64,000 nucleotides of DNA, from positions 1 through 64,000 of the forward strand of contig JAACFO010000008.1 in the NCBI GenBank assembly GCA_009937425.1, in the 5' to 3' direction. The notes below the pieces were generated by a model that worked only from the letters and a program-made list of their open reading frames with translations, ran no database searches and was not told the origin of the DNA. The position numbers and the translations under genes were made by a program. Within the stretch, counting starts at the first letter, position 1; each line of letters starts with the position of its first letter. Source of the DNA: Gammaproteobacteria bacterium (lineage in GTDB: Bacteria > Pseudomonadota > Gammaproteobacteria > HK1). Below are positions 12,386 to 27,208 of the stretch, piece by piece.

Positions 12386-13258
12386 ATGAACAAGAAATCA
12401 GTGACGGCATTGGCGGCGGCGTGTTTGCTGGTCGCCGGGTTTCTACCCGGCGGCGTGCAAGCGGCCAGCGACGGGGAGCTCCAGAAGGCGCGCGCGGAAC
12501 TGCGCCTGCGCGCGGAAACCGAGCGGCGCATGCGCCGGGATTTCGAGTCCCTGCTTGCCGGCGGCCGGATGTCGGCTGTTGACGTCGCCGATTTCGAGAA
12601 CTACCTGGCTCGCCTCGGTATGCTGGTGGACAAGCAGCGCAGGGTGGTCGCCAGCCTCGAGGGAGCCGGCTCGGAACGCCCCGCGGGTTCCTCCGATACT
12701 GATCCCCAGGCGGCGCTCCCCGCAGGCTTCGATCGCGGGCAGACCGATGCGGAGAAAATTGCATTATTGGATGCCGAGCTTGGAAACTCGCTGTCCGAGT
12801 TCGACGAGAAGTTGCTACGGGAGCAAAACGAACTTGCGGAGAAGTCTCGCGCGGCATCCACTGGCGAAAGCGGCGACAACCAGGAGTCCGGCGCCGGCGC
12901 GTCGGCAAAGGCCGGTGAAGGGCGGGGCGAAAAGACCGAAGGTGAGGCCAAGGACGGGACCGGCAAGAAAAACGGTGAATCCGCTGCCGAGAGCGGCGAA
13001 AAGACCGGTGACTCGGAGCAACAGGCGCAAGACAGCGCCGACGGTAACGATAGTGCCGGCGGAAACGACAAGGTGGCATCGGCCGGCAGCGCCGGCGGCG
13101 ACAAGGCCAAGACTTCGACGCCAGCGGACATACCGGATGGCAGGGACGACGATATCGTCGCGCGTCAGTTGCGCGAGGCCGCGGAGAACGAGCAGGATCC
13201 GGAGCTACGCGATAAGCTTTGGGAAGAGTATCGGAACTACAAGAATCGTACCCGGTAG
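12386..13258 (+). CDS. exported coiled-coil/low-complexity protein, first gene of the VWA-channel cluster
   Basis: No named family that I recognise. The 290-residue product starts with a clear signal peptide (cleavage near AQA-like VQAAS, residue 26). A helical, charged N-terminal region (about 28-95) comes next. A long Gly/Glu/Lys/Ser/Asp-rich linker (about 150-250) looks disordered. A compact helical C-terminus (about 255-290) contains DDDIVARQLREAAENE and KLWEEYRNYK. The folded ends with a flexible middle suggest a periplasmic tether or adaptor. It is 15 bp upstream of the lipoprotein gene and begins the run of same-strand genes ending at 21740. The start is supported by a GCGAGAG ribosome-binding site. 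Confidence 0.8.
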   Translation: MNKKSVTALAAACLLVAGFLPGGVQAASDGELQKARAELRLRAETERRMRRDFESLLAGGRMSAVDVADFENYLARLGMLVDKQRRVVASLEGAGSERPAGSSDTDPQAALPAGFDRGQTDAEKIALLDAELGNSLSEFDEKLLREQNELAEKSRAASTGESGDNQESGAGASAKAGEGRGEKTEGEAKDGTGKKNGESAAESGEKTGDSEQQAQDSADGNDSAGGNDKVASAGSAGGDKAKTSTPADIPDGRDDDIVARQLREAAENEQDPELRDKLWEEYRNYKNRTR

Positions 13259-13273
13259 ATTCGTGGACCCCAG

Positions 13274-14506
13274 ATGAAGCAGCTCACTCGCTTAATGGTC
13301 GCATTGCTGGCATTGGCGCTGCTCGGCGCCTGCAGCGGCGTCAAGCACAAGGATGTGGAACCCACCCGCATCAGCATGGCGGACAAAGAGCTCGCGGAGT
13401 CCGCGCTTCTCGATGTGGGTATTGCGACCTTCGATGCCGGCCTCGAGACTGCCGATGGCGACGCGCCTGAGGACGTGTTCCCCGACATTCGTAAGAGCGA
13501 GGCGCGGTTCATCCCGGTTCATTTGAAGAACACCATGCAGCGCACCGGGTACTGGGGCGCGGTACGGGTAATACCCAGCCGCACCGAGGCAACCGACGTA
13601 CTGGTCACGGGTAAAATTCTACGTTCTGACGGCGAGACCCTCGAGCTCGCCATCGATGCCTACGATGCCACGGGCAGGCACTGGTTCAGCCATGTTTACG
13701 AAGCATCCATGGAAGCCGAGGAATACGGGGTGTACCGGCGTGGCGAAGAGGATCCTTTCCAGGATCTCTACAACACCATGGCCAACGATCTCGCCAAGCA
13801 CAAGGCGAGTCTCAGCAGCGAAGATTTCGCCAATATTCGACAGGTCTCGGAGTTGCGATTCGCCGCCTGGCTGGCCCCCGACGTGTTCGGGCCCTATCTG
13901 ATGGAAGACGAAGACGGCATCTGGCACGTGAAGAGTCTCCCTGCCAGTAATGATCCCATGTTGCGGCGGGTGCTCAATATACGTGAACGGGAATACATGC
14001 TCATCGATACCCTCACCAGTCACTACGACGTGTACTACGCCAATATGTGGGATCCCTACGTGGGCTGGCGGAAGGCTCGAAGTGAACAGATGGAGTCGCT
14101 GCGCGAGCTGGAGAGCAAGGCATTCTGGCGCAAGCTCGGTGGCGCCGGGCTCATCGCCGGCGCCATTGCCCTGGACATACTGGTTGGCGGAAACAACACC
14201 AGGCTTTTGTCCAACACCATGGTCGTCGGCGGTGTCATGGCGGTGAAGAGCGGCATCGACCTGGGAAACCAGACGGAGATCCACAGAGTCACTATTCGCG
14301 AGCTGGGGACATCTTTCGAATCCGAAGTCAAACCCCTGGTGGTCGACGTGGACGGCGAAACCGTGGAGCTCACGGGCTCGGCGGAGGTCCAGTACGCGGA
14401 CTGGCGGCGTTTATTGAAGAGCATTCATTTTACCGAGACAGGTCTCGGCGAGGTTAACGCGACCATGGAGAAGCCGGTCGCACCGGAGCCCGCTCCCGTC
14501 TATTGA
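13274..14506 (+). CDS. lipoprotein of the VWA-channel cluster
   Basis: A 410-residue lipoprotein with signal peptide and lipobox LGAC (Cys20). Position +2 after the cysteine is Ser-Gly rather than Asp, which favours sorting to the outer membrane. An N-terminal alpha/beta domain (about 40-165) with VLVTGKILRSDGETLEL resembles lipoproteins that compute or bind in the periplasm, but I cannot assign a family. A glycine-rich hydrophobic stretch (about 287-330, GGAGLIAGAIALDILVGG) could insert into or lie on a membrane. It is followed by a beta-rich end and a proline-rich tail. The setting suggests the outer-membrane anchor of the neighbouring machine. Confidence 0.8.
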   Translation: MKQLTRLMVALLALALLGACSGVKHKDVEPTRISMADKELAESALLDVGIATFDAGLETADGDAPEDVFPDIRKSEARFIPVHLKNTMQRTGYWGAVRVIPSRTEATDVLVTGKILRSDGETLELAIDAYDATGRHWFSHVYEASMEAEEYGVYRRGEEDPFQDLYNTMANDLAKHKASLSSEDFANIRQVSELRFAAWLAPDVFGPYLMEDEDGIWHVKSLPASNDPMLRRVLNIREREYMLIDTLTSHYDVYYANMWDPYVGWRKARSEQMESLRELESKAFWRKLGGAGLIAGAIALDILVGGNNTRLLSNTMVVGGVMAVKSGIDLGNQTEIHRVTIRELGTSFESEVKPLVVDVDGETVELTGSAEVQYADWRRLLKSIHFTETGLGEVNATMEKPVAPEPAPVY

Positions 14507-14571
14507 CCCCCCGTGCATCGAGGCTCCGGTGAACTGGTTTCCGACCCGGGCTCAGCCAGGTTCTTACTCCC

Positions 14572-16086
14572 GTGAGTGATTCCATCGACAACGACAGCCA
14601 GCCCGTACCCGACATCGTTCCCGGTGCCGCCGGGACACGGGATCCCGGCGACCGGGGTCCACCGCGGCAACACAGGCCGACACTGCGCCTGGTTATCATC
14701 GCTTTGCTGTGCCTCATGTTGTTGCTGTTGATAGGCGTGGTCGTGGTACTGCCGGATCTGGTCGCCCAGCGCGTGACCGATGAGCAGAAACCCGCGGCGC
14801 CAGCGCCCCCGGTAGTGTCTCCTGTGCCGCCATCGTCCGCCGACGCCAAACGCCTGGCCAGGGAAAAACGTGAAGCCCAGAAGAGGCTTGGTATTGTTCT
14901 CAGAAAACAAACCGAGCTGGAGGCGGAGGGCGTCGCCACCTGGGGTGGGCAGGACTACGAGCTGGCTCTGGATAGCCTGGCCGAGGGGGATGCGGAGCTG
15001 CAAGCCGGGCGCTACGCACAGGCGGCGGACAACTACGGGAAAGTCGGTGCGCAGTTGGACGCGCTGCGCGCATCCATGGCCGACAGGTTGGCCTCAGCGC
15101 TCGGGGCCGGGGACGCTGCACTCGCTGCCAACGACGGTCCCACGGCGCGGCACAATTTCAACCTTGCCCTTGCCATCGCGCCGCTGAACGAGCGCGGGCA
15201 GCAGGGCATGGTGCGTGCCAGGGTATTGGAGCAAGTGCTCGACCTGATCGCCGCCGGCGCCGGGCACGAGTCGCGCGATGAGCTGGACGCTGCGAAAGCC
15301 AAGTATGCCGCAGCGCTCGCCCTCGATGGCCGCTCTCTGCAGGCAAGCGCGGCTCACGATTCCGTTACGGGGAGAATTCGCGATCGTGAGTTCAATGCCG
15401 CCATGTCGGTTGCACTCGCGGCGCTGGATAGAGGCGAATTTGCCGCTACGCGTGCAGCACTGACCCGGGCCGACGGGGTCCGGCCGGGGACCCCGGAAGT
15501 GGCCGACGTGGGCAGGCGCCTGCAAATCGCCGTTCAACACAGCCGCATCGATGCTCTTCGAAGTCAGGCGAAGGTGCTCGAGGGTGACGAGCACTGGAGC
15601 CAGGCCGGCGATCGCTATGCAGCGGTACTCGCCATCGATTCGAAGGCGGCATTCGCCCGCGCCGGCAGAGAAAGAAGCCTGGCCAGGGCGCGCATCCACG
15701 CGGAGCTGGACGCATATCTGGCGGCACCGGGGCGATTGAGTGCCTCGGGACCCCGGGACAATGCCCGGCAACTGCTCAGCGTAACCGCCGGCCTGGATGC
15801 GAAGACGGAACCAAAGCTCGCCGCCAAGGCCGAGCGGCTTGCCGGAGCGCTTGAAATTGCTGAAACGCCCCTGCAGCTTAGACTGCAGTCGGATAATCTC
15901 ACCGACGTTACGGTCTACAAGGTGGGGCGCTTTGGCCGCTTCGCCAGCCGGGACCTCGTTTTGCTACCGGGAAACTACGTGGCGGTGGGTACCCGGTCGG
16001 GCTATCGGGATGTGCGTGTCGAGTTCACGCTGACAGGTGGTCAGGAGCACCCCGACATTACTGTCCGCTGTCAGGAAAAAATTTGA
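14572..16086 (+). CDS. single-pass membrane protein with TPR-like region and PEGA-like end
   Basis: A 504-residue protein starting with GTG. A short proline- and arginine-rich cytoplasmic tail (1-38) precedes one transmembrane helix (about 39-62). The periplasmic part begins with a charged coiled coil (about 75-105). A long alpha-helical, alanine/leucine-rich stretch (about 115-420) follows, with TPR-like units such as GRYAQAADNYGKVGAQLDAL. The last 70 residues form a beta domain whose LLPGNYVAVGTRSGYRDVRVEF resembles PEGA domains. Positive-inside charge predicts the N-terminus in the cytoplasm. It overlaps the next gene by four bases (TTGA), implying coupled translation and a common complex. 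Confidence 0.8.
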   Translation: MSDSIDNDSQPVPDIVPGAAGTRDPGDRGPPRQHRPTLRLVIIALLCLMLLLLIGVVVVLPDLVAQRVTDEQKPAAPAPPVVSPVPPSSADAKRLAREKREAQKRLGIVLRKQTELEAEGVATWGGQDYELALDSLAEGDAELQAGRYAQAADNYGKVGAQLDALRASMADRLASALGAGDAALAANDGPTARHNFNLALAIAPLNERGQQGMVRARVLEQVLDLIAAGAGHESRDELDAAKAKYAAALALDGRSLQASAAHDSVTGRIRDREFNAAMSVALAALDRGEFAATRAALTRADGVRPGTPEVADVGRRLQIAVQHSRIDALRSQAKVLEGDEHWSQAGDRYAAVLAIDSKAAFARAGRERSLARARIHAELDAYLAAPGRLSASGPRDNARQLLSVTAGLDAKTEPKLAAKAERLAGALEIAETPLQLRLQSDNLTDVTVYKVGRFGRFASRDLVLLPGNYVAVGTRSGYRDVRVEFTLTGGQEHPDITVRCQEKI

Positions 16087-18482
16087 CTCGCGACGTCATC
16101 ATTCACGATATCCGCGGACGGCGTACCTGCACGGACGCGGAATTTCCGTTGGCCATAGGCGGCGGCTCCCAGGCGGACATCCGGCTGCCGGATACGCAAG
16201 AGAGCGTTACCTTTGCATTCGTCGGACGGTCCGAATCACACATCTTTATACAACCGGCCGACGAGTCGCTCCCGGTGATTCACAACGACAAAATCGTGTC
16301 TGAATCCCGCTGGTTGGAGCACGGCGACGTAATGCGCATGGCCAGCTCCACCGTGCGATACGAGGCGGGCGCTACGAGTATCACCTTCATGGTCGACGTG
16401 GAGGTGGTGGCGCCTTCGGTCGAGCCGCCAAAGGATCCACCACCGGCGCCGTCACCACCGTCGAAAGGCTCCGGGGGAACCGGATCCCGTACCCCTTTTA
16501 CGCGCCGGCGCATGGTAACCGGGCTCGCCCTGTCGGTGTTCCTGGCCCTGGTTGTGGTTGCCGGTTTTGTGTTCTTCGCCACATCGGTGTCGGTGCAGGT
16601 CACACCGACCCCGGATCGGGTGAGTATCGACGGTACGCTGCCGGTTATCAGCGTTGCTGAACGGCTGTTGGTGATCCCCGGATCGTATCGGGTACGCGCC
16701 AGCAAAGCGGGTTACCGGGCGCTTGACACCCGCGTCGAGATTGCCGGGTCCGAGCATCAAACGCTGACATTCGCGTTGGGCAAGTTGCCCGGCATCCTGA
16801 GCTTCGTGATTCGTCCCGACGTTGTCGCGACTGTGAGCATGGATGGCGTAATCCTCGGGGGCACGCCGCTGGAGCAGGTGGAAGCACCACCCGGCGAGCA
16901 CGACATCACCGTCGTGGCGGATCGTTATGCTCCGGCGTCACAGCGAATCGACGTACGTGGATTGGATGAGCGCCAAACTATCCATGTGGTGCTGTCACCC
17001 TTGTGGGCCGAAGTTTCCATCGACTCGCGGCCTGCGGGTGCGCGGGTCATGCTGGACGGCGAAGCAATCGGTGAGACGCCACTGCAGGTGGAGATCCTCG
17101 AAGGCACATACCGGCTGTTGCTGGAGCGCGATGGCTTCGACGCTGTTTCGAGCACGCTGCAGGTAACCGCCAATCGCGCCCAGGTACTGCCGGAATTCAC
17201 CCTGGTCGAGTCCGCCGGTGTGGTGAGCGTTCAAACCATCCCGGCGGGCGCCAATGTGACGGTGGCCGGAAAGTTTCTCGGCCGTACGCCCCTGGAACTC
17301 ACTCTCGCGCCGCGCCAGCATCATGCACTGGAGATCTCGAAGGCGGGTTATGAGGTGATAAGGCGCCAGATAAACGTAGAGCCTGCCACCAGCGAGAAGT
17401 TGTCGCTGACCTTATCGCCCCGCTACGGCACCCTGTTCATCACGAGCGTGCCCGTGGACGCGGAGTTGTATGTGGATGGCCGGCTGCGAGGCCCCGCCAC
17501 CGGCCGCGTCAAGCTGACCGCCAGGGCTCACCGGCTGGAAGTCAAGAAGGCCGGCTACGAAAGCTTCAGTGCGACGGTAACACCGCGGGCCGGCGTCAGT
17601 CAGGAAATTTCCGTAACCCTGAAGACCATCGCGCAGGCGACGGCGGCGGCGCGAAAACCGGTGATCACCACTGCAGAAGGTCAGACTTTGAAGTTGCTCG
17701 AACCGGCGCGCTTTTCCATGGGCGCATCACGGCGCGAGCAGGGCCGGCGCGCCAATGAGAGCCAGCGCCTGGTGGAGATCACGCGCCCCTACTATCTGAG
17801 CGTCATGGAGGTGAGCAACGACGAGTACCGGCGTTTCAAATCGAAACATAGCTCCGGAGCGATTCGCGGTAAGAGCTTGAATGAACCGTCGCAACCGGTG
17901 GCGGGAGTGACCTGGGAGGATGCCGTGGCTTATCTCAACTGGTTGAGCGCCAGGGACTCGCTGCCGCTGGCCTACCGGGAAGTGGGTGAAAGCTTCGCTC
18001 CGGTGCAGCCGCCGACCACCGGCTACCGACTGCCCACTGAGGCCGAATGGGCATTTGCAGCACGTTATGCGGGCAATGACAAGGCCCTGAAATATTCCTG
18101 GGGAGACAGCTACCCGCCCACCGGCTCGGCGGGGAACTTTGCCGACAGCTCCGCCAGAACGCTGTTGCCGAACACGCTCAGCGACTATGGTGATGGTTAT
18201 GTCGCGTCGGCTCCGGTGGGTAAATTTTCGCCAACGGGTCCGGGCTTTTTCGACCTTGGGGGTAACGTGGCCGAATGGTGTCAGGATTACTACGCGGTCT
18301 ATCCGAACGCGGCGAGCAGCGTGGAAACGGATCCCGCCGGCCCGGCGACGGGCAGGCATCACGTGGTGCGGGGATCCAGCTGGCGCCACGCCGGCATGAG
18401 TGAGCTGCGACTGAGCTACAGAGACTACAGTGAGAAGGCGCGCAACGATCTCGGTTTCAGGATTGCCCGTTATGCGGAATAG
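16083..18482 (+). CDS. FHA-like / transmembrane / PEGA-array / SUMF1-fold membrane protein
   Basis: A 799-residue mosaic starting at TTG inside the previous stop. Residues 1-105 look like a divergent FHA domain (LAIGGGSQADIRLP, then WLEHGDVMRMASSTVRYE). A proline linker (111-140) leads to one transmembrane helix (144-169). Periplasmic residues 170-525 hold about five PEGA repeats, for example SRPAGARVMLDGEAIGETPL and IPAGANVTVAGKFLGRTPL. Residues 534-799 form a SUMF1/FGE-sulfatase-fold domain with GYRLPTEAEWAFAARY at 647 onward, GNVAEWCQDYY at about 727 and VVRGSSWRH. The two catalytic cysteines of aerobic formylglycine-generating enzymes are absent, so a binding role is likelier than catalysis. 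The FHA part should face the cytoplasm and could bind a phosphothreonine partner. Confidence 0.88.
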   Translation: MTRDVIIHDIRGRRTCTDAEFPLAIGGGSQADIRLPDTQESVTFAFVGRSESHIFIQPADESLPVIHNDKIVSESRWLEHGDVMRMASSTVRYEAGATSITFMVDVEVVAPSVEPPKDPPPAPSPPSKGSGGTGSRTPFTRRRMVTGLALSVFLALVVVAGFVFFATSVSVQVTPTPDRVSIDGTLPVISVAERLLVIPGSYRVRASKAGYRALDTRVEIAGSEHQTLTFALGKLPGILSFVIRPDVVATVSMDGVILGGTPLEQVEAPPGEHDITVVADRYAPASQRIDVRGLDERQTIHVVLSPLWAEVSIDSRPAGARVMLDGEAIGETPLQVEILEGTYRLLLERDGFDAVSSTLQVTANRAQVLPEFTLVESAGVVSVQTIPAGANVTVAGKFLGRTPLELTLAPRQHHALEISKAGYEVIRRQINVEPATSEKLSLTLSPRYGTLFITSVPVDAELYVDGRLRGPATGRVKLTARAHRLEVKKAGYESFSATVTPRAGVSQEISVTLKTIAQATAAARKPVITTAEGQTLKLLEPARFSMGASRREQGRRANESQRLVEITRPYYLSVMEVSNDEYRRFKSKHSSGAIRGKSLNEPSQPVAGVTWEDAVAYLNWLSARDSLPLAYREVGESFAPVQPPTTGYRLPTEAEWAFAARYAGNDKALKYSWGDSYPPTGSAGNFADSSARTLLPNTLSDYGDGYVASAPVGKFSPTGPGFFDLGGNVAEWCQDYYAVYPNAASSVETDPAGPATGRHHVVRGSSWRHAGMSELRLSYRDYSEKARNDLGFRIARYAE

Positions 18483-18735
18483 ACCGCGAATCGGGGGGCT
18501 CTCTCTGGTGTTGCTGCTGGTTCTGGTCCCCTGCACCCACGCCATTGCGGATCCTGTTGCAGCGCAAGGGAGCGGTGACCCGGAAAAAGCTGCAGTGACT
18601 CAGCCGGAGGATTCCGACACCGCGCAACCGGGGAAGCCGCCCCGGGGGGTTGGCGAAATTTCGCCGTCGGAGCCTTTCATCCCCAGCGAAACCATTTCCG
18701 CAGACAGTGCCGTATCTTTTCCCGTGGACATTTGA
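18472..18735 (+). CDS. small exported proline/serine-rich protein of the VWA-channel cluster
   Basis: An 87-residue product with an N-terminal signal peptide (about 1-25) and a hydrophilic, proline-rich mature region. The C-terminus FIPSETISADSAVSFPVDI looks like a short conserved docking motif. The start at 18472 (ATG) overlaps the previous gene by 11 bases, and it is followed after 7 bases by the channel gene. This tight packing argues that it is real and functionally coupled. No family name is known to me. Confidence 0.65.
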   Translation: MRNRPRIGGLSLVLLLVLVPCTHAIADPVAAQGSGDPEKAAVTQPEDSDTAQPGKPPRGVGEISPSEPFIPSETISADSAVSFPVDI

Positions 18736-18742
18736 GCATCCT

Positions 18743-19540
18743 ATGAAAAAAAATTTTCCCACCGAGTTCGTCTATCAGGTGTTCTCACTGCTGATCGCGA
18801 TAATCATCGTGCACGCCATTTATGTAGCCGTCATCCGGCCGGATGCTCGCGCGTTCCTGGAGCAGGAAGCACAAGCAATGCAGGCTGACCCAAACTATGT
18901 CCCGGAACGATCACTGCCGGTGATCATCAAGGACTTCGAGCAGGAGGCATGCTTCATACTCATGTTCTGGGCGTTCGCGATCATCATTTTCAAAGGCGTA
19001 ATTACCCACAGGCAGCGGCTTCTGCTCGATAAGGAACTAATTCTGCTGTCCGAAGACATGCGCATCCTGCCCCAGGATACCCGCGAGTTGTCGCGCAGAA
19101 TTCAGGCACTGCCCGCGGCGGTGCAGTCCTTCCTGTTGCCGCGTACTCTCACCACCGCCCTGCAGCGATTCGCTGCCACCGAAAATATCCAGAATGTTTC
19201 CACATCGGTCCGTGAGATTTCCGAATCCGAGTCCGAGCGATTGGAGTCCGAATTGTCGATCATCCGCTACATCGCCTGGGCGATACCGTCCATCGGATTC
19301 ATCGGCACGGTGCGCGGCATCGGCGATGCCCTGGGGCAGACGCACAAGGCTGTCGAGGGAGATATTACAGGCGTCACCCAGAGTCTTGGCGTGGCATTTA
19401 ATTCCACGTTCATTGCGCTGGTAATCAGTATCGTGTTGATGTTTTTTATCTATCAGCTGCAGCTGATGCAGGAACGGCTGGTGTTGGACACGGAGTCTTA
19501 CTGCGACGAACACTTGATACGCCACCTGCAGGTCCCCTGA
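18743..19540 (+). CDS. MotA/TolQ/ExbB-family proton-channel subunit
   Basis: A 265-residue inner-membrane protein with predicted helices at about 11-31, 67-86, 172-193 and 214-238. About 85 cytoplasmic residues lie between helices two and three, a four-helix layout like MotA rather than three-helix ExbB. The family core is plain: AIPSIGFIGTVRGIGDALGQ in helix three (Thr189) and QSLGVAFNSTFIALVISIVL in helix four (Thr222). Such proteins form the pentameric ion-conducting barrel that turns around a dimer of MotB/ExbD-type partners. The partners here are most likely the two VWA proteins encoded next. The start was set at 18743, where homology-like sequence begins; the open frame itself extends upstream. 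Confidence 0.9.
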   Translation: MKKNFPTEFVYQVFSLLIAIIIVHAIYVAVIRPDARAFLEQEAQAMQADPNYVPERSLPVIIKDFEQEACFILMFWAFAIIIFKGVITHRQRLLLDKELILLSEDMRILPQDTRELSRRIQALPAAVQSFLLPRTLTTALQRFAATENIQNVSTSVREISESESERLESELSIIRYIAWAIPSIGFIGTVRGIGDALGQTHKAVEGDITGVTQSLGVAFNSTFIALVISIVLMFFIYQLQLMQERLVLDTESYCDEHLIRHLQVP

Positions 19541-19624
19541 TGGGATGCGAGGAAGGCGGAACAATGTGACTGCCAGCCAGCTCCGCGAGCCCCTCGCCGG
19601 TCATAAAGCGACGCATACGAGCCA

Positions 19625-20719
19625 ATGAAAAGGCGCCGCACCGTTAATCCGTTCGGCATGTCCTTTCTCGACGTCATGTTCTGCGGGTTCGGGTCGGTCG
19701 TGCTGTTGGTGATGATCGTCAATGCCAACGCCATTACCAAGCGACAGGAGCTTCACAAGGATCTGCGCGGCGAGGTGGACAGACTGGAGCGCGAGGTGCT
19801 GGCCGGGGAAAGGTTCCGGGTTGAACTTCGCGTGGTTCTTGACGAGATTGAAGATGATCGCGAAACCGTGCGCCAGATGTCGCGGGAGGTGAATCTGAAT
19901 ATCGGCAGATCAAAAGCCGATCTCAAACACATAAGAGAAGAGACGATTGCGCGGGCGTCGCACATCAACGAACTGCAATCGGATCTCAAAAGTCTGGATG
20001 CGGAAGCGAATGCTTTGCAGGCGAAGCTCGACGAGCAGGAAGGTGAGGGTGCACAGGTAAGGCAGTTCGTCGGCGCGGGCGATCGACAGTACCTCACCGG
20101 GTTGAAGATGGGTGGAAAGCGCGTTCTCATCCTGGTGGACGCGTCCGCGAGTATGCTCGACGAAACCATAGTGAACGTGATCCGGCGGCGAAACCTGTCC
20201 GATGACAAAAAACGCGCATCCAAAAAGTGGCAGAAGGCGATCATGACCGTCGAATGGCTCGTGAGTCAGCTGCCCGCGGATGCGAAGTTTCAAATGATTG
20301 TGTTTAACGTGCAGGCACAATCCGTGATGGGGGTGACCGGGCCCGATTGGGTCGATACCAGCGACACTGCATCACTGGACCGGGCCATCGACGGGTTACG
20401 CCAGGTGATCCCCGACCAGGGCACCAATCTCTACCGGGCCTTCATGGCGACAGGTGATCTCGAGCCGCGTCCGGACAACATCTACCTTTTGACCGACGGC
20501 TTGCCAACCCAGGGAGAAAGCAAGCCATCCGGTAGTACCGTGACGCCGAAACAGCGTCTGCGCTATTTCGAGAACGCGGTGGAAGAGTTGCCCGAGGGAA
20601 TTCCGGTGAACACGATTCTGTTTCCGATGGAAGGCGACCCCGCGGCAGCTCTCGCCTTCTGGCAATTGACGACAAAATCCAGGGGATCGATGATCAGTCC
20701 ATCGAGAGATTGGCCTTGA
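19625..20719 (+). CDS. VWA-domain protein with ExbD/TolR-like membrane helix (first paralogue)
   Basis: A 364-residue protein. Basic residues 2-5 precede one transmembrane helix (about 13-33) beginning MSFLDVMFCGFGSVVLLVMI. Asp16 sits where ExbD and TolR carry their proton-binding aspartate (pattern F-[IL]-D-V-M). Residues 36-145 form a long coiled coil. A von Willebrand A domain (about 160-350) has a complete MIDAS: Asp172, Ser174 and Ser176 in DASAS, Thr267 in DQGTNLY and Asp291 in LLTDGLP. The domain should face the periplasm and bind a divalent cation and a protein ligand. It follows the channel gene by 84 bp and precedes its paralogue by 13 bp. Confidence 0.9.
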   Translation: MKRRRTVNPFGMSFLDVMFCGFGSVVLLVMIVNANAITKRQELHKDLRGEVDRLEREVLAGERFRVELRVVLDEIEDDRETVRQMSREVNLNIGRSKADLKHIREETIARASHINELQSDLKSLDAEANALQAKLDEQEGEGAQVRQFVGAGDRQYLTGLKMGGKRVLILVDASASMLDETIVNVIRRRNLSDDKKRASKKWQKAIMTVEWLVSQLPADAKFQMIVFNVQAQSVMGVTGPDWVDTSDTASLDRAIDGLRQVIPDQGTNLYRAFMATGDLEPRPDNIYLLTDGLPTQGESKPSGSTVTPKQRLRYFENAVEELPEGIPVNTILFPMEGDPAAALAFWQLTTKSRGSMISPSRDWP

Positions 20720-20732
20720 ACAGTCCCGAATC

Positions 20733-21740
20733 GTGAAGCGTAGAAAGCCACCAGTGGAGATCTTCAGCATGTCGTTTCTCGACATAATCAGCTGTGGCTT
20801 CGGCGCAATCATTTTGTTGTTCGTCATCTCGAAGCAAGCCGAGCCCATGGTCATCGAAGGAATCCGCGAGAATCTCAATGGGGTCATAGCGGAGCTGGAG
20901 AGAACAATCTTCGAGTTGCGGGGCGAAGCGACGGTACTGAATCGAGAAAAGAACGCCAGGCGGGTCGATCTGAAACAGGACCGGGTCGCGCTCGAAGCCT
21001 TGCACAAGCAGCTGCAGGCGGTACACGGTGAGTATGCCGCGGCCGGGCAAACGCTGGATGCCAAGCGGGTGATAGAAGGCAGGCTCAGCATCGCGAGGCA
21101 GGAACTGAGCGAAGAAATGCGGCGTCTTCTTGGGGAAGACTTCAGGCGGCCGGCGGCGGACTCTACGATCGGCGGCGTTCCCGTGGACAGTGAATACATC
21201 ATCTTCATTATCGACACGTCCAGCAGCATGACTGGAAACGCCTGGCCATTGGTGATCCGCAAAATGACGGAAACACTGGAAATTTATCCGAAGGTAAAGG
21301 GCATTCAGGTTCTGAACGACAACGGCATCTACATGTTCTCCACATTTGCGGGTCAGTGGATATCCGACACGCCCGGAATGCGTAAGGCGATCCTGGATCG
21401 ACTCGTGGATTGGCGAGCGACCAGCTACAGTAGCCCCGTCAACGGCATAACCAAGGCGATTCGTACCTTCTATGCACCGGACAAAAAAATCAGCCTCTAC
21501 GTTTTTGGTGATGACTTGCAAGACAGCACTGTCGATTCCGTCGTCAAGAAAGTCGATGCAATCAACAAGGAAGATGCGCAAGGTAATCGACTGGTACGCA
21601 TCCATGCTGTTGGATTTCCGGTCAATGTGAACCGCGCCTTGAGTATGCAGGGTTCCGCAAGGCGATTCGCCTCGCTGATGCGTATTCTCAGCCAGAGGAA
21701 CGGTGGCACCTTTGTCGCGCTGAGCAGTAATAGCCCATAG
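20733..21740 (+). CDS. VWA-domain protein with ExbD/TolR-like membrane helix (second paralogue)
   Basis: A 335-residue GTG-start protein built like its neighbour. A basic N-terminus leads to a transmembrane helix (about 12-32) beginning MSFLDIISCGFGAIILLFVI with Asp17. A coiled coil spans about 40-135 and a VWA domain 150-330. The MIDAS has Asp161, Ser163 and Ser165 in DTSSS, a probable Thr230 in WRATSYS and Asp260/261 in VFGDDLQ. The sequences have diverged well beyond the shared helix, so the two VWA proteins probably do different jobs in one heterodimer. It is the last gene of the cluster. The 88 bp after it are AT-rich. Confidence 0.9.
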   Translation: MKRRKPPVEIFSMSFLDIISCGFGAIILLFVISKQAEPMVIEGIRENLNGVIAELERTIFELRGEATVLNREKNARRVDLKQDRVALEALHKQLQAVHGEYAAAGQTLDAKRVIEGRLSIARQELSEEMRRLLGEDFRRPAADSTIGGVPVDSEYIIFIIDTSSSMTGNAWPLVIRKMTETLEIYPKVKGIQVLNDNGIYMFSTFAGQWISDTPGMRKAILDRLVDWRATSYSSPVNGITKAIRTFYAPDKKISLYVFGDDLQDSTVDSVVKKVDAINKEDAQGNRLVRIHAVGFPVNVNRALSMQGSARRFASLMRILSQRNGGTFVALSSNSP

Positions 21741-21828: not shown

Positions 21829-22743
21829 ATGGTGGTATTGCGTTACATGATGTTCAGCCGCTATCTGGTTGTTAGCATGCTGTTCCTTGCACTTTGCTGG
21901 ACCACTCCTCAGGCCCTGGCCCAGACTGCATCCGCCGCAACACAGGCGACTCCGGGCAGCTTTCGGCAGCTGGTCACGGATATCCAACGCATGCTCACCG
22001 ATCTGGGATACCGCCCGGGCCCCGTGGACGGCTCCGTGGGCGAGCGCACCCGGCAGGCGATTCGGCGCTATCAGTCGAATACCGGCCTGGCGGTGGACGG
22101 GCACCCCAGCGCAAGCTTGCACCAGCACCTGCTTGTCACCACAGGCACTGCCGCTCCCCAGAGCGCCTCCCAGAGCGGCGCGAGCACCCAGGCGGCCGCG
22201 GCGAAAAGCAAGCGTAAAGCTGCCTGGCAAGGGCGAACGGTCTCGGATTCACTGCTGCGCATCGCCCCGTCCGGGGCATCGGCCAGCAAACAGCGGCTGG
22301 CCAAGGGTACGCAGCTGGAGATCATCCGCCGCCAGGGCGCCTGGTTGGAAGTCCGCGTCAAGAGCAGCGGTTCCGAGGGTTGGGTAAAGCAGGTGAGCGT
22401 GGTCGCGGCCACCGAGACAGCCCCGGCACCCAGCAAGAAAAAGAGCGGCGGCTTTTTCGCCAACCTGGCTCGCGGCGTGTCCCGCCTGTTGGGAGGGTCC
22501 AGTGACGCTCCCGCGGATCAGGGAAATGTAACCATAGGAATTCGCGGACTCGCGCCCGAGGATTTGGCCAGCGCCATACCGGATCCAGGCGAGTTGGACA
22601 AGATGGAAAGTTTTCGTGCGGATCGCGATCAGGCTTTCCGATTCGCCAGTGAGGAACGACTCACGGTGCAAACCGTCGAGTACATGCAGGCTGCCGGGGC
22701 CAGTTCCTCCAGTCCCGCCGTCTCCCGTGGCAGGGACGACTGA
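21829..22743 (+). CDS. exported peptidoglycan-binding/SH3-domain protein
   Basis: A 304-residue protein with a signal peptide (cleavage near residue 32). A PG_binding_1 domain (about 45-100: LVTDIQRMLTDLGYRPGPVDG, TRQAIRRYQSNTGL) is followed by a linker. A bacterial SH3 domain (about 135-190: TVSDSLLRIAPSGASAS, GAWLEVRVKSSGSEGWVKQ) and a conserved C-terminal segment (TIGIRGLAPEDLASAIPDP) complete it. It should bind the cell wall. The start at 21829 has a good AAAGGA site; the frame is open further upstream without support. The stop overlaps the M48 protease start by one base (TGATG), so the two are translationally coupled. Confidence 0.85.
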   Translation: MVVLRYMMFSRYLVVSMLFLALCWTTPQALAQTASAATQATPGSFRQLVTDIQRMLTDLGYRPGPVDGSVGERTRQAIRRYQSNTGLAVDGHPSASLHQHLLVTTGTAAPQSASQSGASTQAAAAKSKRKAAWQGRTVSDSLLRIAPSGASASKQRLAKGTQLEIIRRQGAWLEVRVKSSGSEGWVKQVSVVAATETAPAPSKKKSGGFFANLARGVSRLLGGSSDAPADQGNVTIGIRGLAPEDLASAIPDPGELDKMESFRADRDQAFRFASEERLTVQTVEYMQAAGASSSSPAVSRGRDD

Positions 22744-23594
22744 TGGGCTGGGTTCGACGGGTAGTCGTGGTGGGGTTTCTGATCTGGACGCCGTCGCTCC
22801 TATCATTCGATCTGGGCGGCCTGGATCCCCTCAAGATCACCGATATTCTCGTCAAGGGCGTGAAGTCCTTCGGCGATGTTCCCGAGGACAAGGAAATCCA
22901 GATTGGCAAGGATCTGTCCGCCGGCCTGCTGGGCGCCACGCCACTGGTGGATGACGCGGTCGCGCAAAATTACGTTAATCAGATCGGACGCTGGCTTGCC
23001 TTTCAAACCGAGCGTCCGGATCTTCCCTGGACCTTTGCCGTCATCGATACCGACACGGTCAACGCTTTTGCCGCGCCGGGCGGCTACGTCTTCGTCACTC
23101 GCGGGCTGTTTCTCATGCTGCGTAACGAGGCGGAGCTTGCGGGCGTCATCGGTCACGAAATTTCTCACGTTCTGCGCCGCCATCATCTGGTGGCTCTCGA
23201 GAAACAATTACGCGCCAGTCTCGCCACCGACATGGCCGGCATGCTGGTGGAATACGATTCGGAAATGGTCGACGCTCTGGTGGGAGCGGGTATGCAGCTC
23301 TACGGGAAGGGACTCGATCGAGACGACGAGCTCGAGGCCGATCGCATGGGTGTCGTCGTGGCTGCGCGAAGCGGCTACGACGCCTACGGCCTCCCGGCAA
23401 TGCTCATGACCTTACACAGCCGCAGCGAGAACGATCAGAATCTGACTTTTCTTTTCAGTACCCACCCACCCACGGTCGATCGCCTGGAACAGCTGGACCA
23501 GGAAATGCAGGGGCGCATGGATCAATACAGCGGCGCCGCCGGCCAGACGAAGCGTTTCCAGGAGATACAAGAACGCCTGCGCAGCGATGGTTGA
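22743..23594 (+). CDS. M48-family zinc metalloprotease, exported
   Basis: Zinc endopeptidase of 283 residues with an N-terminal hydrophobic export signal. The zinc motif is HEISH in VIGHEISHVLRRHH (about residue 137), and the third ligand comes from DELEADRMGV near 198. Further family marks are NAFAAPGGYVFVTRGL before the zinc site and FLFSTHPPTVDRLEQL near the end. Its organisation is that of the periplasmic LoiP/BepA group without the TPR tail, which process or quality-control outer-membrane proteins. Coupling to the peptidoglycan-binding SH3 protein suggests a cell-envelope maintenance role. Confidence 0.9.
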   Translation: MGWVRRVVVVGFLIWTPSLLSFDLGGLDPLKITDILVKGVKSFGDVPEDKEIQIGKDLSAGLLGATPLVDDAVAQNYVNQIGRWLAFQTERPDLPWTFAVIDTDTVNAFAAPGGYVFVTRGLFLMLRNEAELAGVIGHEISHVLRRHHLVALEKQLRASLATDMAGMLVEYDSEMVDALVGAGMQLYGKGLDRDDELEADRMGVVVAARSGYDAYGLPAMLMTLHSRSENDQNLTFLFSTHPPTVDRLEQLDQEMQGRMDQYSGAAGQTKRFQEIQERLRSDG

Positions 23595-23597
23595 CGT

Positions 23598-24191
23598 TCA
23601 GCGGCGCGTGTTGATGGCTTCGGCGATTTCCATACTGAGAACCGCCAGCGCCCGGCTGCTGGCTGCGACCAGGGCGTTGTAGCTGCCGTCCTCGGTAGAC
23701 TCGTTGACAATGGTTACCTTGCTGAACAGCGGCTCGCGGGTGTCACTGCCGTACAAGGTCCAGCGCGCGCCAAGAGTAGCCACCTCACCGAGCCGTCCAT
23801 CGAAGCGCCCGATGTCGATGGAAACCTGAAATTCCACTGCCACCTTTTGTCGTCTGGGAATGACGAATACGCGATTGGATTCCAGTATGTTCGACAGATT
23901 TATGGCGATTACCCTTGAGACGCTGTCTTTCAAGGGCTCGGCCCATTGATGGGATTCGGACAGGTCGAGTTGGTAGTCCGTAGCGCGGGTGACGATCTGT
24001 GAGCGGTTGAGGTGCGCGGGTAGCTCAATGGGGCCGACACCGACGGCGATGCCGCGCTCCACTCCGACGATGGATTCACTGGTTGTGGCATCCAGGACAT
24101 AGAAGTCCGGCGGCGGACCTTTGGCGCATCCCGCGCCAAGCACGAGCGTGGCGAGCAGGACATAAACAGAACCCCTCGAGATGACCGGCAT
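23598..24191 (-). CDS. PqiC/ABC-transport auxiliary lipoprotein of the MCE operon
   Basis: A 197-residue lipoprotein (lipobox LGAGC, Cys22) of the ABC-type transport auxiliary component group, the family of PqiC/YmbA. Characteristic points are PPDFYVLDA soon after the cysteine, VGVGPIELPAHLNRSQIVTR, and the repeated alpha/beta pattern to the C-terminus. It probably sits in the outer membrane and receives or stabilises the MCE protein across the periplasm. It is the last gene of the four-gene permease-ATPase-MCE-lipoprotein operon, 9 bp after the MCE gene. Confidence 0.85.
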   Translation of the reverse strand: MPVISRGSVYVLLATLVLGAGCAKGPPPDFYVLDATTSESIVGVERGIAVGVGPIELPAHLNRSQIVTRATDYQLDLSESHQWAEPLKDSVSRVIAINLSNILESNRVFVIPRRQKVAVEFQVSIDIGRFDGRLGEVATLGARWTLYGSDTREPLFSKVTIVNESTEDGSYNALVAASSRALAVLSMEIAEAINTRR

Positions 24192-24200
24192 CTGTTTCTC

Positions 24201-25283
24201 CTATTGCCCCTTGCCCTTGAGCAGCGCGTCCGGATTCTGCTCCAGGTAGTCCGCCATCAGCCGTACCGAGCGTGCCGCGGCTGCGAGTTCTTCCAGTGTC
24301 GTGTCGAGGTTGTAGCGGGTATGGGAATCCTCACCAATGAGAGTCTCGACGGCTTCCAACGTCAATGTGGCTTGATTCATCGTGGCCTTGGTGGAATCCG
24401 ACAATGGCTTGACTTGGGTGTCGAGATTGGTGGCCAGCGTGCGAACGGCGGACAGGGCTTTATCCAGCTTGTTGGCGACATGCTCCAGTCGTTCATCAGT
24501 ATTATTGCTCAGGCGAGAAACGTCCGAGAGTGCGGTCGTAAGCACCGTCTCGGCGGCCGCAACCGATTGCCGCGTTTGCTCGAGTGTTTCCATCGCCGTC
24601 TGTGAGAGCTTATGGGTATCGGTTTGAAGTTGCAGCACAAGTGCGTTAGCACCGCGGGCGGTCTTGTCGAGATTTTCGATTGTGCTGGCGAGGGCGGGCG
24701 AATTTACAAGCTTGCTGATGCCGTCGAGTGTAAGAATCGCCTTGCCGGCCATTTCGTCTAAATTGAGATTGTCGAACAGGCTGGTGAACTTGTCCAAGCG
24801 TGATGCGGTGCTGGGTATTTCGGGAATATTTCCGTCGACGCCCAATATTGTCGCCGGTGTATCCGGATGGAATTCCAGAGCCACGAACTTACTGCCTGTT
24901 ACGAGACTACGTATATCGAGTCGCGCACGCAGACCGAATTCGATCATCTTCTCGATCTCGAGTTGCGGCGACTCCTCGGGCTCATCCTCCCGGATGTTGG
25001 TGACGGAATCGCTGTCCAGCGACATGTAGACAGGGATTACGAAGGATGTTTTCTCTGGGTCGTAAAGCGCCTTGATGCTCGTCACCGTGCCCACGGGTAC
25101 GCCGCGAAATTCCACCGGCGATCCCACTTGCAGGCCTGTTACCGATCCCTCGAACACCGTCACCACGACAACGCGCTCATTGAAAAACTGTCCGGTGCCG
25201 AACAACATCACTGCGCCAAGAACCAGTGCGATGGCGCCGATGACGAATGCGCCGACGACCGTCGTATTCGCCCGCTTGCTCAT
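24201..25283 (-). CDS. MlaD/PqiB-type MCE-domain protein
   Basis: A 360-residue inner-membrane protein with one helix at about 8-30 and a single MCE domain (about 40-125, FEGSVTGLQVGSPVEFRGVPVG). A long helical periplasmic tail (about 180-350) rich in coiled coil follows. MCE proteins form hexameric rings that conduct phospholipids between inner and outer membranes. The tail is longer than in E. coli MlaD and may form part of a channel. The start at 25283 overlaps the ATPase stop by four bases (ATGA); the longer frame back to 25328 lies wholly within the ATPase gene. Confidence 0.9.
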   Translation of the reverse strand: MSKRANTTVVGAFVIGAIALVLGAVMLFGTGQFFNERVVVVTVFEGSVTGLQVGSPVEFRGVPVGTVTSIKALYDPEKTSFVIPVYMSLDSDSVTNIREDEPEESPQLEIEKMIEFGLRARLDIRSLVTGSKFVALEFHPDTPATILGVDGNIPEIPSTASRLDKFTSLFDNLNLDEMAGKAILTLDGISKLVNSPALASTIENLDKTARGANALVLQLQTDTHKLSQTAMETLEQTRQSVAAAETVLTTALSDVSRLSNNTDERLEHVANKLDKALSAVRTLATNLDTQVKPLSDSTKATMNQATLTLEAVETLIGEDSHTRYNLDTTLEELAAAARSVRLMADYLEQNPDALLKGKGQ

Positions 25284-26035
25284 GCTGCCCCTCGGGTCAG
25301 GAACTGGCGTACCCGCCGGTTTTCGCACTCGTCTCTCAATAGCCGTGGATTACCACTGGCCAGCATGGTCGAGGTCTCCGTATCGAGAAATACCGAGTTA
25401 TCACAAATGCTGAGTATGCTGTATAGCTCGTGGCTGACGATGACGACAGTGGTTCCAAGGCTGTCACGCAAGTGCACTACGAGCTCATCGAGCAAGCGTG
25501 AACTGATTGGATCGAGTCCGGCCGACGGTTCATCGAGAAACAGCGTGTCGGGGTCGAGTGCCATTGCTCTGGCGATGGCGGCGCGTTTTCGCATACCACC
25601 ACTGATCTCTGCCGGATAGTAATCCTCGAAGCCGGCGAGTCCCACAAAGGCCAGTTTGAGCATGGCAACTTCATATGCGTGATCATCTTCCAAGCCCACG
25701 AACTCCGTGAGAGGCAGAGTAATATTCTCCGCCAGTGACATTGAACTCCATAACGCGCCACCTTGATACATGACGCCAAATGATTGCATTAGAATCTTCT
25801 GTCGTTCCAGGTCCGCATCCCAGAAGCTTTCCTCACCGTAGAGGACGCGGCCCTCGAGGGGCTTGAGCAATCCCACGGCGCCGCGCATCAATGTGCTCTT
25901 GCCGCAACCGCTGGGGCCCATGATGGCGAAAATCTCGCTCCTTCCGATGGTGAAATCCAGATCCCGTTGCACGACCCGCTCACCGTAGCCCACCGAGACG
26001 CCCTCGAAACGGATGTGGGGCGCCGCGACCGCCAT
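25280..26035 (-). CDS. MlaF-like ABC transporter ATPase
   Basis: A 251-residue nucleotide-binding subunit of the MCE lipid transporter. Walker A is GPSGCGKST, the signature motif is EISGGMRKRAAIARAM and Walker B is DTLFLDEPSAGLD, followed by the switch HELYSILSICD. The GGMRKR form of the signature is typical of the MlaF/Mkl subgroup. It is coupled to the permease upstream (3 bp) and the MCE protein downstream (4-bp overlap). Confidence 0.95.
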   Translation of the reverse strand: MAVAAPHIRFEGVSVGYGERVVQRDLDFTIGRSEIFAIMGPSGCGKSTLMRGAVGLLKPLEGRVLYGEESFWDADLERQKILMQSFGVMYQGGALWSSMSLAENITLPLTEFVGLEDDHAYEVAMLKLAFVGLAGFEDYYPAEISGGMRKRAAIARAMALDPDTLFLDEPSAGLDPISSRLLDELVVHLRDSLGTTVVIVSHELYSILSICDNSVFLDTETSTMLASGNPRLLRDECENRRVRQFLTRGAA

Positions 26036-26038
26036 CGC

Positions 26039-27208
26039 TCAGATGCCCATGACGTCGTAGGCGACCGTCAGCACGGCGCACGCAACGACGATGAAAACGA
26101 TGCTCGTCACGACTGCGGAGGTGGTCGCGATGCCCACCGCCGCCGAGCTTCGGCCGCATTCCATGCCGCGCAAACAGCCCGAGATGGCGACGATTGCCCC
26201 GTATACCAGGCCCTTGAACATTCCGCCGAATACATCGAAGAGATCGATCGCGGAACGGGTTTGGCGAAAATACTCGTAGGTCCCGATATCGAACAGCGTA
26301 ACGCCCACCAGCGCACCGCCGAGAATCCCCATGAGGTCCGCGTAAAGCGTTAACAGCGGCATCATCAGTATCAACGCCAGAATGCGCGGCACCACGAGGA
26401 AATCGATGGGTGAGATACCCATGGTTCTCAGGGCATCGATCTCCTCGTTGACTGTCATGGTGCCGATCTCGGCGGCATAGGCGGCGCCGGTGCGCCCGGC
26501 CATGATGATCCCCGTCATCATCGCACCCATATCGCGCACCATCCCCAGGCCAACGAGATTCGCGATGAAGATGTCGGCGCCGAACTGCTCGAGCTGCACG
26601 GCGCCGACAAATGCAAGAATAAGTCCAACCAGTATGCTGATGAGGCTCACGATGGGTAGCGCCTGGGCCCCGACCTGCTGGACGACGAGAAACAAATCCG
26701 AAGGCCGGTAATGGGCGCGGCCGGTGAGCATGCGTCCCAGGGACACGGATACCCCTCCGACGAAACGCAAAATGTCGGCCGTGGAGCGGACGAAGCCGAT
26801 TGCCTCGCTACCCACATCGGCAAGAAAGGATGTGTCGGGTTGGTGGTCCCGGGTCTCCTGGTGCGCCGGCACGGTCTCGGCAAGATCGAGCAGATCCCGC
26901 AGTCCCCTGGGCAACCCGGACAGATCCAGGGCCACACCGGCGCTTCTGGACAGGCGCGCCAGTCTGTAGACGACGTTGACGAGGCTCGAATCCCAGCTTT
27001 CCAGACCGCCGGAATCGAAGCACAGCCGGGAAAGTCCGTCGCTGTCGACTGCTTGCTCCGCCTCGGCGGTGGAGGGCAGTCCACTCGCCAGGGTCCAGCT
27101 TCCGGCCACCTGAACCTGGAGGGTTCCGGCGCCCGGGTAGCTCAATCTCATTTGTGCTGCTGACATCCCTGGACCGATATTGTCCTGATTCAATGAATTA
27201 CGTCGCAT
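26039..27208 (-). CDS. MlaE-like permease with N-terminal STAS-like domain
   Basis: A 389-residue protein whose C-terminal about 260 residues are an MlaE-type permease. Several membrane helices are visible, as is the family signature GAMMTGIIMAGRTGAAYAAEIGTM near residue 240. The first about 110 residues (TLQVQVAGSWTLASGL to ALDLSGLPRGLRDLLDLA) look like a STAS domain. In the E. coli Mla system that regulatory role is a separate protein, MlaB, and here the two appear fused. It is first in its operon and diverges from the GGDEF-EAL gene. Confidence 0.9.
   Translation of the reverse strand: MRRNSLNQDNIGPGMSAAQMRLSYPGAGTLQVQVAGSWTLASGLPSTAEAEQAVDSDGLSRLCFDSGGLESWDSSLVNVVYRLARLSRSAGVALDLSGLPRGLRDLLDLAETVPAHQETRDHQPDTSFLADVGSEAIGFVRSTADILRFVGGVSVSLGRMLTGRAHYRPSDLFLVVQQVGAQALPIVSLISILVGLILAFVGAVQLEQFGADIFIANLVGLGMVRDMGAMMTGIIMAGRTGAAYAAEIGTMTVNEEIDALRTMGISPIDFLVVPRILALILMMPLLTLYADLMGILGGALVGVTLFDIGTYEYFRQTRSAIDLFDVFGGMFKGLVYGAIVAISGCLRGMECGRSSAAVGIATTSAVVTSIVFIVVACAVLTVAYDVMGI

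Follow-up and report, generated by a model that had tools for sequence, protein, structure and literature searches.

A conserved gene cluster that may encode a proton-driven trans-envelope machine with paired VWA proteins

Genes A to H, at positions 12386-21740 of the DNA analysed here, are a real and conserved multi-gene syntenic unit. The cluster probably encodes a proton-driven trans-envelope machine of the 5:2 type. Machines that use the proton motive force (PMF) and reach the outer membrane are few; the usual list is Ton, Tol, T9SS and Agl-Glt. The cluster would be a further example. It occurs in several phyla and in cultured marine Halieaceae, its part list is defined, and the residues of its ion path can be named.

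The DNA is from Gammaproteobacteria bacterium (GCA_009937425.1, contig JAACFO010000008.1, positions 1 to 64,000 of the forward strand). We refer to this whole 64,000-nt stretch as the window. A previous sequence-only reading had described an eight-gene run on one strand, with short junctions and overlaps. Our ORF check of the window agrees; the coordinates are right, all eight genes are on the + strand and all reading frames are open. The genes, and two neighbours, are as follows.

12386..13258, + strand: gene A, exported low-complexity protein (ORF; orthologues at the cluster head)
13274..14506, + strand: gene B, lipoprotein (lipobox C20, predicted structure, fold matches)
14572..16086, + strand: gene C, predicted single-pass inner-membrane protein with periplasmic TPR-like repeats and a PEGA-like C-terminus
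16083..18482, + strand: gene D, protein with a degenerate FHA domain, a transmembrane segment at 148-166, five PEGA domains and an FGE-like domain
18472..18735, + strand: gene E, short exported protein of 87 aa (ORF)
18743..19540, + strand: gene F, TolQ/ExbB/MotA-type channel (Pfam, invariant Thr residues)
19625..20719, + strand: gene G, single-pass protein with a transmembrane helix, coiled coil and VWA domain
20733..21740, + strand: gene H, paralogue of G with a transmembrane helix and VWA domain
21847..22743, + strand: neighbouring gene for a peptidoglycan-binding and SH3 protein, membership unproven
22743..23594, + strand: neighbouring gene for an M48 (BepA-like) peptidase (profile match)

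Junctions measure 15 bp (A-B), 65 bp (B-C), 7 bp (E-F), 84 bp (F-G) and 13 bp (G-H). C and D overlap by 4 bp. D and E overlap by 11 bp given an E start at ATG 18472, which is most likely the start rather than 18430. The A and E products are exported and, by eye, of low complexity. In A, the conserved part is a short C-terminal block of about 41 residues. For E, comparison of the window with five relatives gave one orthologue (49% over 51 aa), and E was left out of conservation tracking as too short. A scan for promoters and terminators at the cluster gave a signal no higher than shuffled sequence.

Genes lying apart in most carriers would have refuted a single unit; instead, we found them kept together. 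Relatives were collected by scanning GTDB genomes with an alignment of H; the scan gave at least 550, and the top 80 were used. This H-anchored sample is thus made of the best matches to the window and lies close to it. The order of A-D and F-H is kept in hundreds of genomes. Between the window and five relatives, A-B-C-D-F-G-H are collinear down to about 32-40% identity. Per-gene profiles placed the other genes around H in nearly all of the 80 relatives. Where the sequence upstream of H extends for 9.3 kb or more, as in 52 loci, all of B, C, D, F and G were detected in 49. Runs of N are present in L099 and L103; gene C of L043 starts at base 431, placing B at or beyond the locus edge. A further sample consisted of 229 genomes drawn evenly from the class. 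Here, B was found in 15 genomes, the VWA pair G/H in 17 and both in 14, where about 1 is expected (Fisher p=1e-18, a statistic that ignores kinship). Together, the synteny and the strong co-occurrence place the cluster beyond chance. Co-occurrence of the genes does not imply contact between their products. Full clusters were also recovered at L120-L126 from the class draw and at all five loci of a phylum draw (L163-L167). Pairwise distances correlate between families with r=0.80-0.93, values to which relatedness alone contributes. The taxa with the cluster are Gammaproteobacteria, Desulfobacterota, Acidobacteriota, Myxococcota, Planctomycetota and Kiritimatiellia. Cultured carriers include Seongchinamella unica, Exilibacterium tricleocarpae and Parahaliea mediterranea (loci L059, L082 and L097).

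Some loci depart from this arrangement. Locus L069 has its A-D half inverted and downstream, and L120 has gene F at the cluster end; the genes are still grouped in both cases. L116 (G200:C1:1838000-1857000) is a decayed remnant with fragments of B and C only. The other genes are gone from the locus, and F was not found elsewhere in that genome. In genome G228 (loci L117 and L130), A, C, D, G, H and a further gene, X (see below), are at the locus and F is on another contig. B was not found anywhere in G228; hence, B may be dispensable.

The distribution is patchy: within the class, 13 of 197 good-quality genomes carry the cluster. Such a pattern is one expected of anti-phage defence, in which a Zorya-like motor would sense or act on infection, and F has a weak match to ZorA (3.3e-4). 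Conversely, the cluster has no ZorB-type partner or nuclease, A-H have no strong PADLOC match to Zorya parts or other defence genes, and H has no match in phage and plasmid collections. The conserved flanks hold housekeeping and envelope genes. We regard a defence role as highly improbable; neither PADLOC nor the phage and plasmid collections support membership of Zorya or other defence systems.

The motor core is formed by F, G and H. Pfam identified MotA_ExbB in F (E=8e-16) and VWA_2 in G (3e-6), as the sequence-only reading had listed. The Pfam match of H to VWA is weak (0.07), and its VWA assignment comes from homology to G (E=2.8e-26 by profile comparison); the DxSxS motif of H is intact. 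In the aligned F family, T189 and T222 are Thr in 62/62 sequences. The F profile aligns without gaps to TolQ residues 104-212 (E=0.0066), with T189 on T145 and T222 on T178, and TolQ is the best solved-structure match of F. In TolQ, T145 and T178 line the proton path and meet TolR D23 (PMC12583513). A tree of F with MotA, ExbB and TolQ paralogues left the deep branches without resolution, and we base no claim on it. On the partner side, Asp16 in the transmembrane helix of G is invariant (68/68), as is Asp17 in that of H (66/66). DxSxS is complete in both families. The VWA domain also has T267 and D291 in G, and D260 in H. F therefore has the pore Thr residues of a 5:2 motor channel, and G and H have the ion-binding-type Asp in a single-pass helix of its partner. 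The assignment of F as a MotA/TolQ-type channel, with G and H as its MotB/TolR-like partners, is well supported by the invariant Asp and Thr residues and by published AlphaFold 3 models (PMC12204202), and the earlier proposal that the VWA proteins partner the channel holds. These residues and the gene content are directly observed; the stoichiometry and rotation we infer.

In D, Pfam detects five PEGA domains (4.8e-58) and an FGE-sulfatase domain (2.6e-39). The FHA-like domain noted earlier has no Pfam match in the window protein; it was recovered with the D family profile, which matches FHA structures (GarA, 2.2e-6), and by profile comparison of the D N-terminus with the FHA domain of X (95.4% probability). 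By these profiles the N-terminus is a degenerate FHA domain, presumably cytoplasmic. No SxxH-type pThr-binding motif is conserved in the D alignment; several X proteins have one. The active-site Cys pair of FGE lies in the C-terminal segment. The corresponding segment of D contains no Cys, and across the family the final 280 residues mostly hold 0-1 Cys. The FGE domain is thus predicted to be non-catalytic, and may serve in docking. Loss of the usual binding and catalytic residues from the two domains had not been noticed in the sequence-only reading.

GldK is the best NCBIfam match of D (1.4e-29). This raises the alternative that the cluster serves surface motility or protein transport, as in T9SS and gliding, with the G/H motor pushing on a ring or track made of the FGE domains of D. 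In PorK, a ring protein of T9SS, a non-catalytic FGE fold without active cysteines is the docking hub of a ring linked to a PMF motor (PMC12421860), and the missing Cys pair of D fits this precedent. However, the GldK score of 103.7 bits is far under the cut-off of 350, and D as GldK is rejected by score. Among PDB sequences, D has stronger matches to FGE enzymes (1.8e-19) than to PorK (3.2e-14). Furthermore, D is anchored in the inner membrane, and no translocon, adhesin or cargo marker was found in the conserved flanks. This explanation seems unlikely to us.

C has a transmembrane segment at 41-59 and no Pfam match in the window. Its assignment as a TPR-like/PEGA protein, made in the sequence-only reading, is supported through the family; an orthologue matches TPR_2 (1.4e-6) and, only weakly, PEGA, and the C-terminus is conserved. 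The fold and topology of D and C, which are the evidence here, are consistent with a periplasmic scaffold anchored in the inner membrane.

B has its lipobox cysteine, C20, in 47 of 50 aligned family members, which bears out its earlier description as a lipoprotein. Its AlphaFold model (pLDDT 84.3) has an N-terminal alpha/beta domain at about residues 43-186, resembling TolB-N, PelC, FlgT and LptE, and a long helical hairpin at 228-351. TolB is the top Foldseek match (E=1.4e-3) and LptE chains are also in the top rows. VIA-align matched FlgT (Z 9.0), DUF330 (Z 8.2) and PelC (Z 8.0; 2.2 A over 112 residues). These scores are middling, with no Foldseek E under 1e-3, and mutually consistent, all over residues about 31-186. 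Many further rows were long-helix matches and were discounted. A sequence search with B against the PDB gave nothing useful. The fold suggests, though it does not prove, that B is an outer-membrane part, acting as a hub and perhaps a ring. Thus, the earlier proposals of a PEGA/SUMF1 and TPR scaffold, and of a lipoprotein reaching the outer membrane, agree with fold and topology, and stand at that level.

TolB among the top fold matches of the B N-terminal domain, and TolQ as the best solved match of F, are what a second Tol-like system would show. Here, the motor would act on the outer membrane or cell wall, in stabilisation or division, with B in the place of TolB/Pal. The M48 BepA-like gene that often adjoins the cluster fits too. 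Against this, Pfam and NCBIfam profiles found no TolR, TolA or Pal homologue among A-H, the distribution is patchy, and all 12 carrier genomes tested have a TolB of their own. Replacement of Tol-Pal is ruled out by this last result, and the cluster is hence an additional system, not a substitute. On balance, we think a second Tol-like system rather unlikely, if a little less so than the motility or transport reading.

The sequence-only reading did not include a ninth gene, X, found in most relatives. An ORF of at least 350 aa lies between F and G in 52 loci, and the profile derived from it matched further loci. X encodes an Hsp70-like ATPase domain and an FHA domain. The X protein of locus L060, which was modelled, has a nucleotide-binding domain of the Hsp70 type (Z 29.3; rmsd 3.0 across 321 residues), and the FHA domain comes after it. 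The predicted folds of X and B are both confident models. Across relatives, the cluster numbers seven to nine adjacent genes. Neither the window nor the assembly it comes from, which is 96.5% complete, yielded X. By gene content and D length, divergent carriers such as L163-L165 and L167 have neither X nor the D FHA domain. The FHA/X layer is therefore not universal among carriers.

FHA and Hsp70 domains could belong to an envelope sensor, where VWA domains bind a ligand, FHA/Hsp70 proteins signal, and ion flow energises or gates a conformational switch. Distant relatives that join an F-like channel and TPH-VWA protein to a PP2C, a trypsin-FHA protein and a Ser/Thr kinase with PEGA point in this direction. 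Yet kinases and phosphatases are missing from the core clusters, divergent carriers do without the FHA layer, and the FHA domain of D is without the usual pThr-binding motif. We judge a sensor to be improbable.

We return to the proton-driven machine, which we favour. F would form a TolQ-like inner-membrane ring, presumably a pentamer. G and H would probably pair as a heterodimer and place their Asp-bearing helices in the F pore in place of TolR/ExbD, forming an axle turned by proton flow. Coiled-coil stalks would pass the motion to the paired periplasmic VWA domains. The MIDAS sites of these domains may engage the scaffold, comprising D, with its PEGA and non-catalytic FGE docking domains, and the TPR/PEGA-like C. 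Lipoprotein B would be reached through the D/C scaffold or directly, as an outer-membrane hub and perhaps ring. X, in most relatives, and the D FHA domain, in many, would provide a cytoplasmic control layer, absent from the most divergent carriers. The output would be force on the outer membrane. We likewise infer the contacts and localisation. The fullest version, a widespread trans-envelope rotary machine with a VWA heterodimer axle, PEGA/FGE inner scaffold, outer-membrane lipoprotein hub and optional Hsp70-FHA module, is more tentative, and we put it a little short of an even chance.

The surroundings of the cluster, and related loci, provided additional observations. Genes of the M48 family adjoin the cluster in 19 sources, the window included; the flank survey of relatives did not bring up the peptidoglycan-binding/SH3 gene as a conserved neighbour. 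In the window, positions 23598-27208 (- strand) resemble a Mla/Mce-type lipid-transport operon by ORF sequence (lipoprotein, MlaD-like protein, ABC ATPase and permease). Halieaceae loci (e.g. L093:3-533, L106:5692-6384) have, immediately upstream of A, a gene whose end looks TonB-C-like by eye, and two lipoprotein-like genes between H and the M48 gene; none has a Pfam match. In a single genome (G158:C15), the distance between TolB and the cluster is about 9.3 kb. An F-like channel, a single TPH-VWA protein and a PP2C-type phosphatase are encoded together at L031 (G051):8494-17952 and L118 (G106):7122-11750; L031 additionally has the trypsin-FHA protein and PEGA-bearing Ser/Thr kinase. These two systems are of a different but related kind.

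Several known systems share parts with the cluster. Zorya (ZorAB) also has a MotA-type channel with a single-pass partner, whereas the cluster is without ZorC-E and F matches ZorA only weakly. GldKLMN (PorKLMN) of T9SS and gliding likewise combines a PMF motor and a non-catalytic FGE-fold protein; however, D is anchored in the inner membrane with FHA and PEGA domains, and the cluster has no GldL, GldM or GldN. PelC, FlgT, LptE and DUF330-type domains have, by predicted fold, a counterpart in residues about 43-186 of B, to which B adds the long helical hairpin. With TolQ-TolR-TolA/Pal the cluster shares the T145/T178 channel residues, an Asp-bearing partner helix and, in B, a TolB-N-like domain. 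It differs in having a VWA heteropair for TolR and in coexisting with TolB.

The closest counterpart is a motor reported in 2025 from gene neighbourhoods and AlphaFold 3, in which a TolQ-like gene accompanies heterologous TPH-vWA pairs in Proteobacteria and Verrucomicrobia (PMC12204202, Mol Biol Evol, Fig. 4c,d; Idiomarina proteins were used). By description and gene content, on which our comparison is based, that core and the cluster have in common a TolQ-like gene, two different vWA proteins, a conserved transpore-helix Asp, a polar Thr ring and no TolR/ExbD. Gene content and paralogy confirm that the cluster combines a heterologous Asp-bearing vWA pair and a TolQ-like gene without TolR/ExbD. 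The sequence-only reading had called the machine undescribed. This does not apply to the F/G/H core, which is already published in silico. It apparently does apply to the full composition and to the function, as we found no description of the whole cluster in a literature search that left out preprints and most subscription journals. The text and legend of the 2025 report deal with the motor genes only, and do not cover B, C, D or the Hsp70-FHA gene X. The cluster thus extends the motor core to outer parts, and it is these conserved outer parts that are new.
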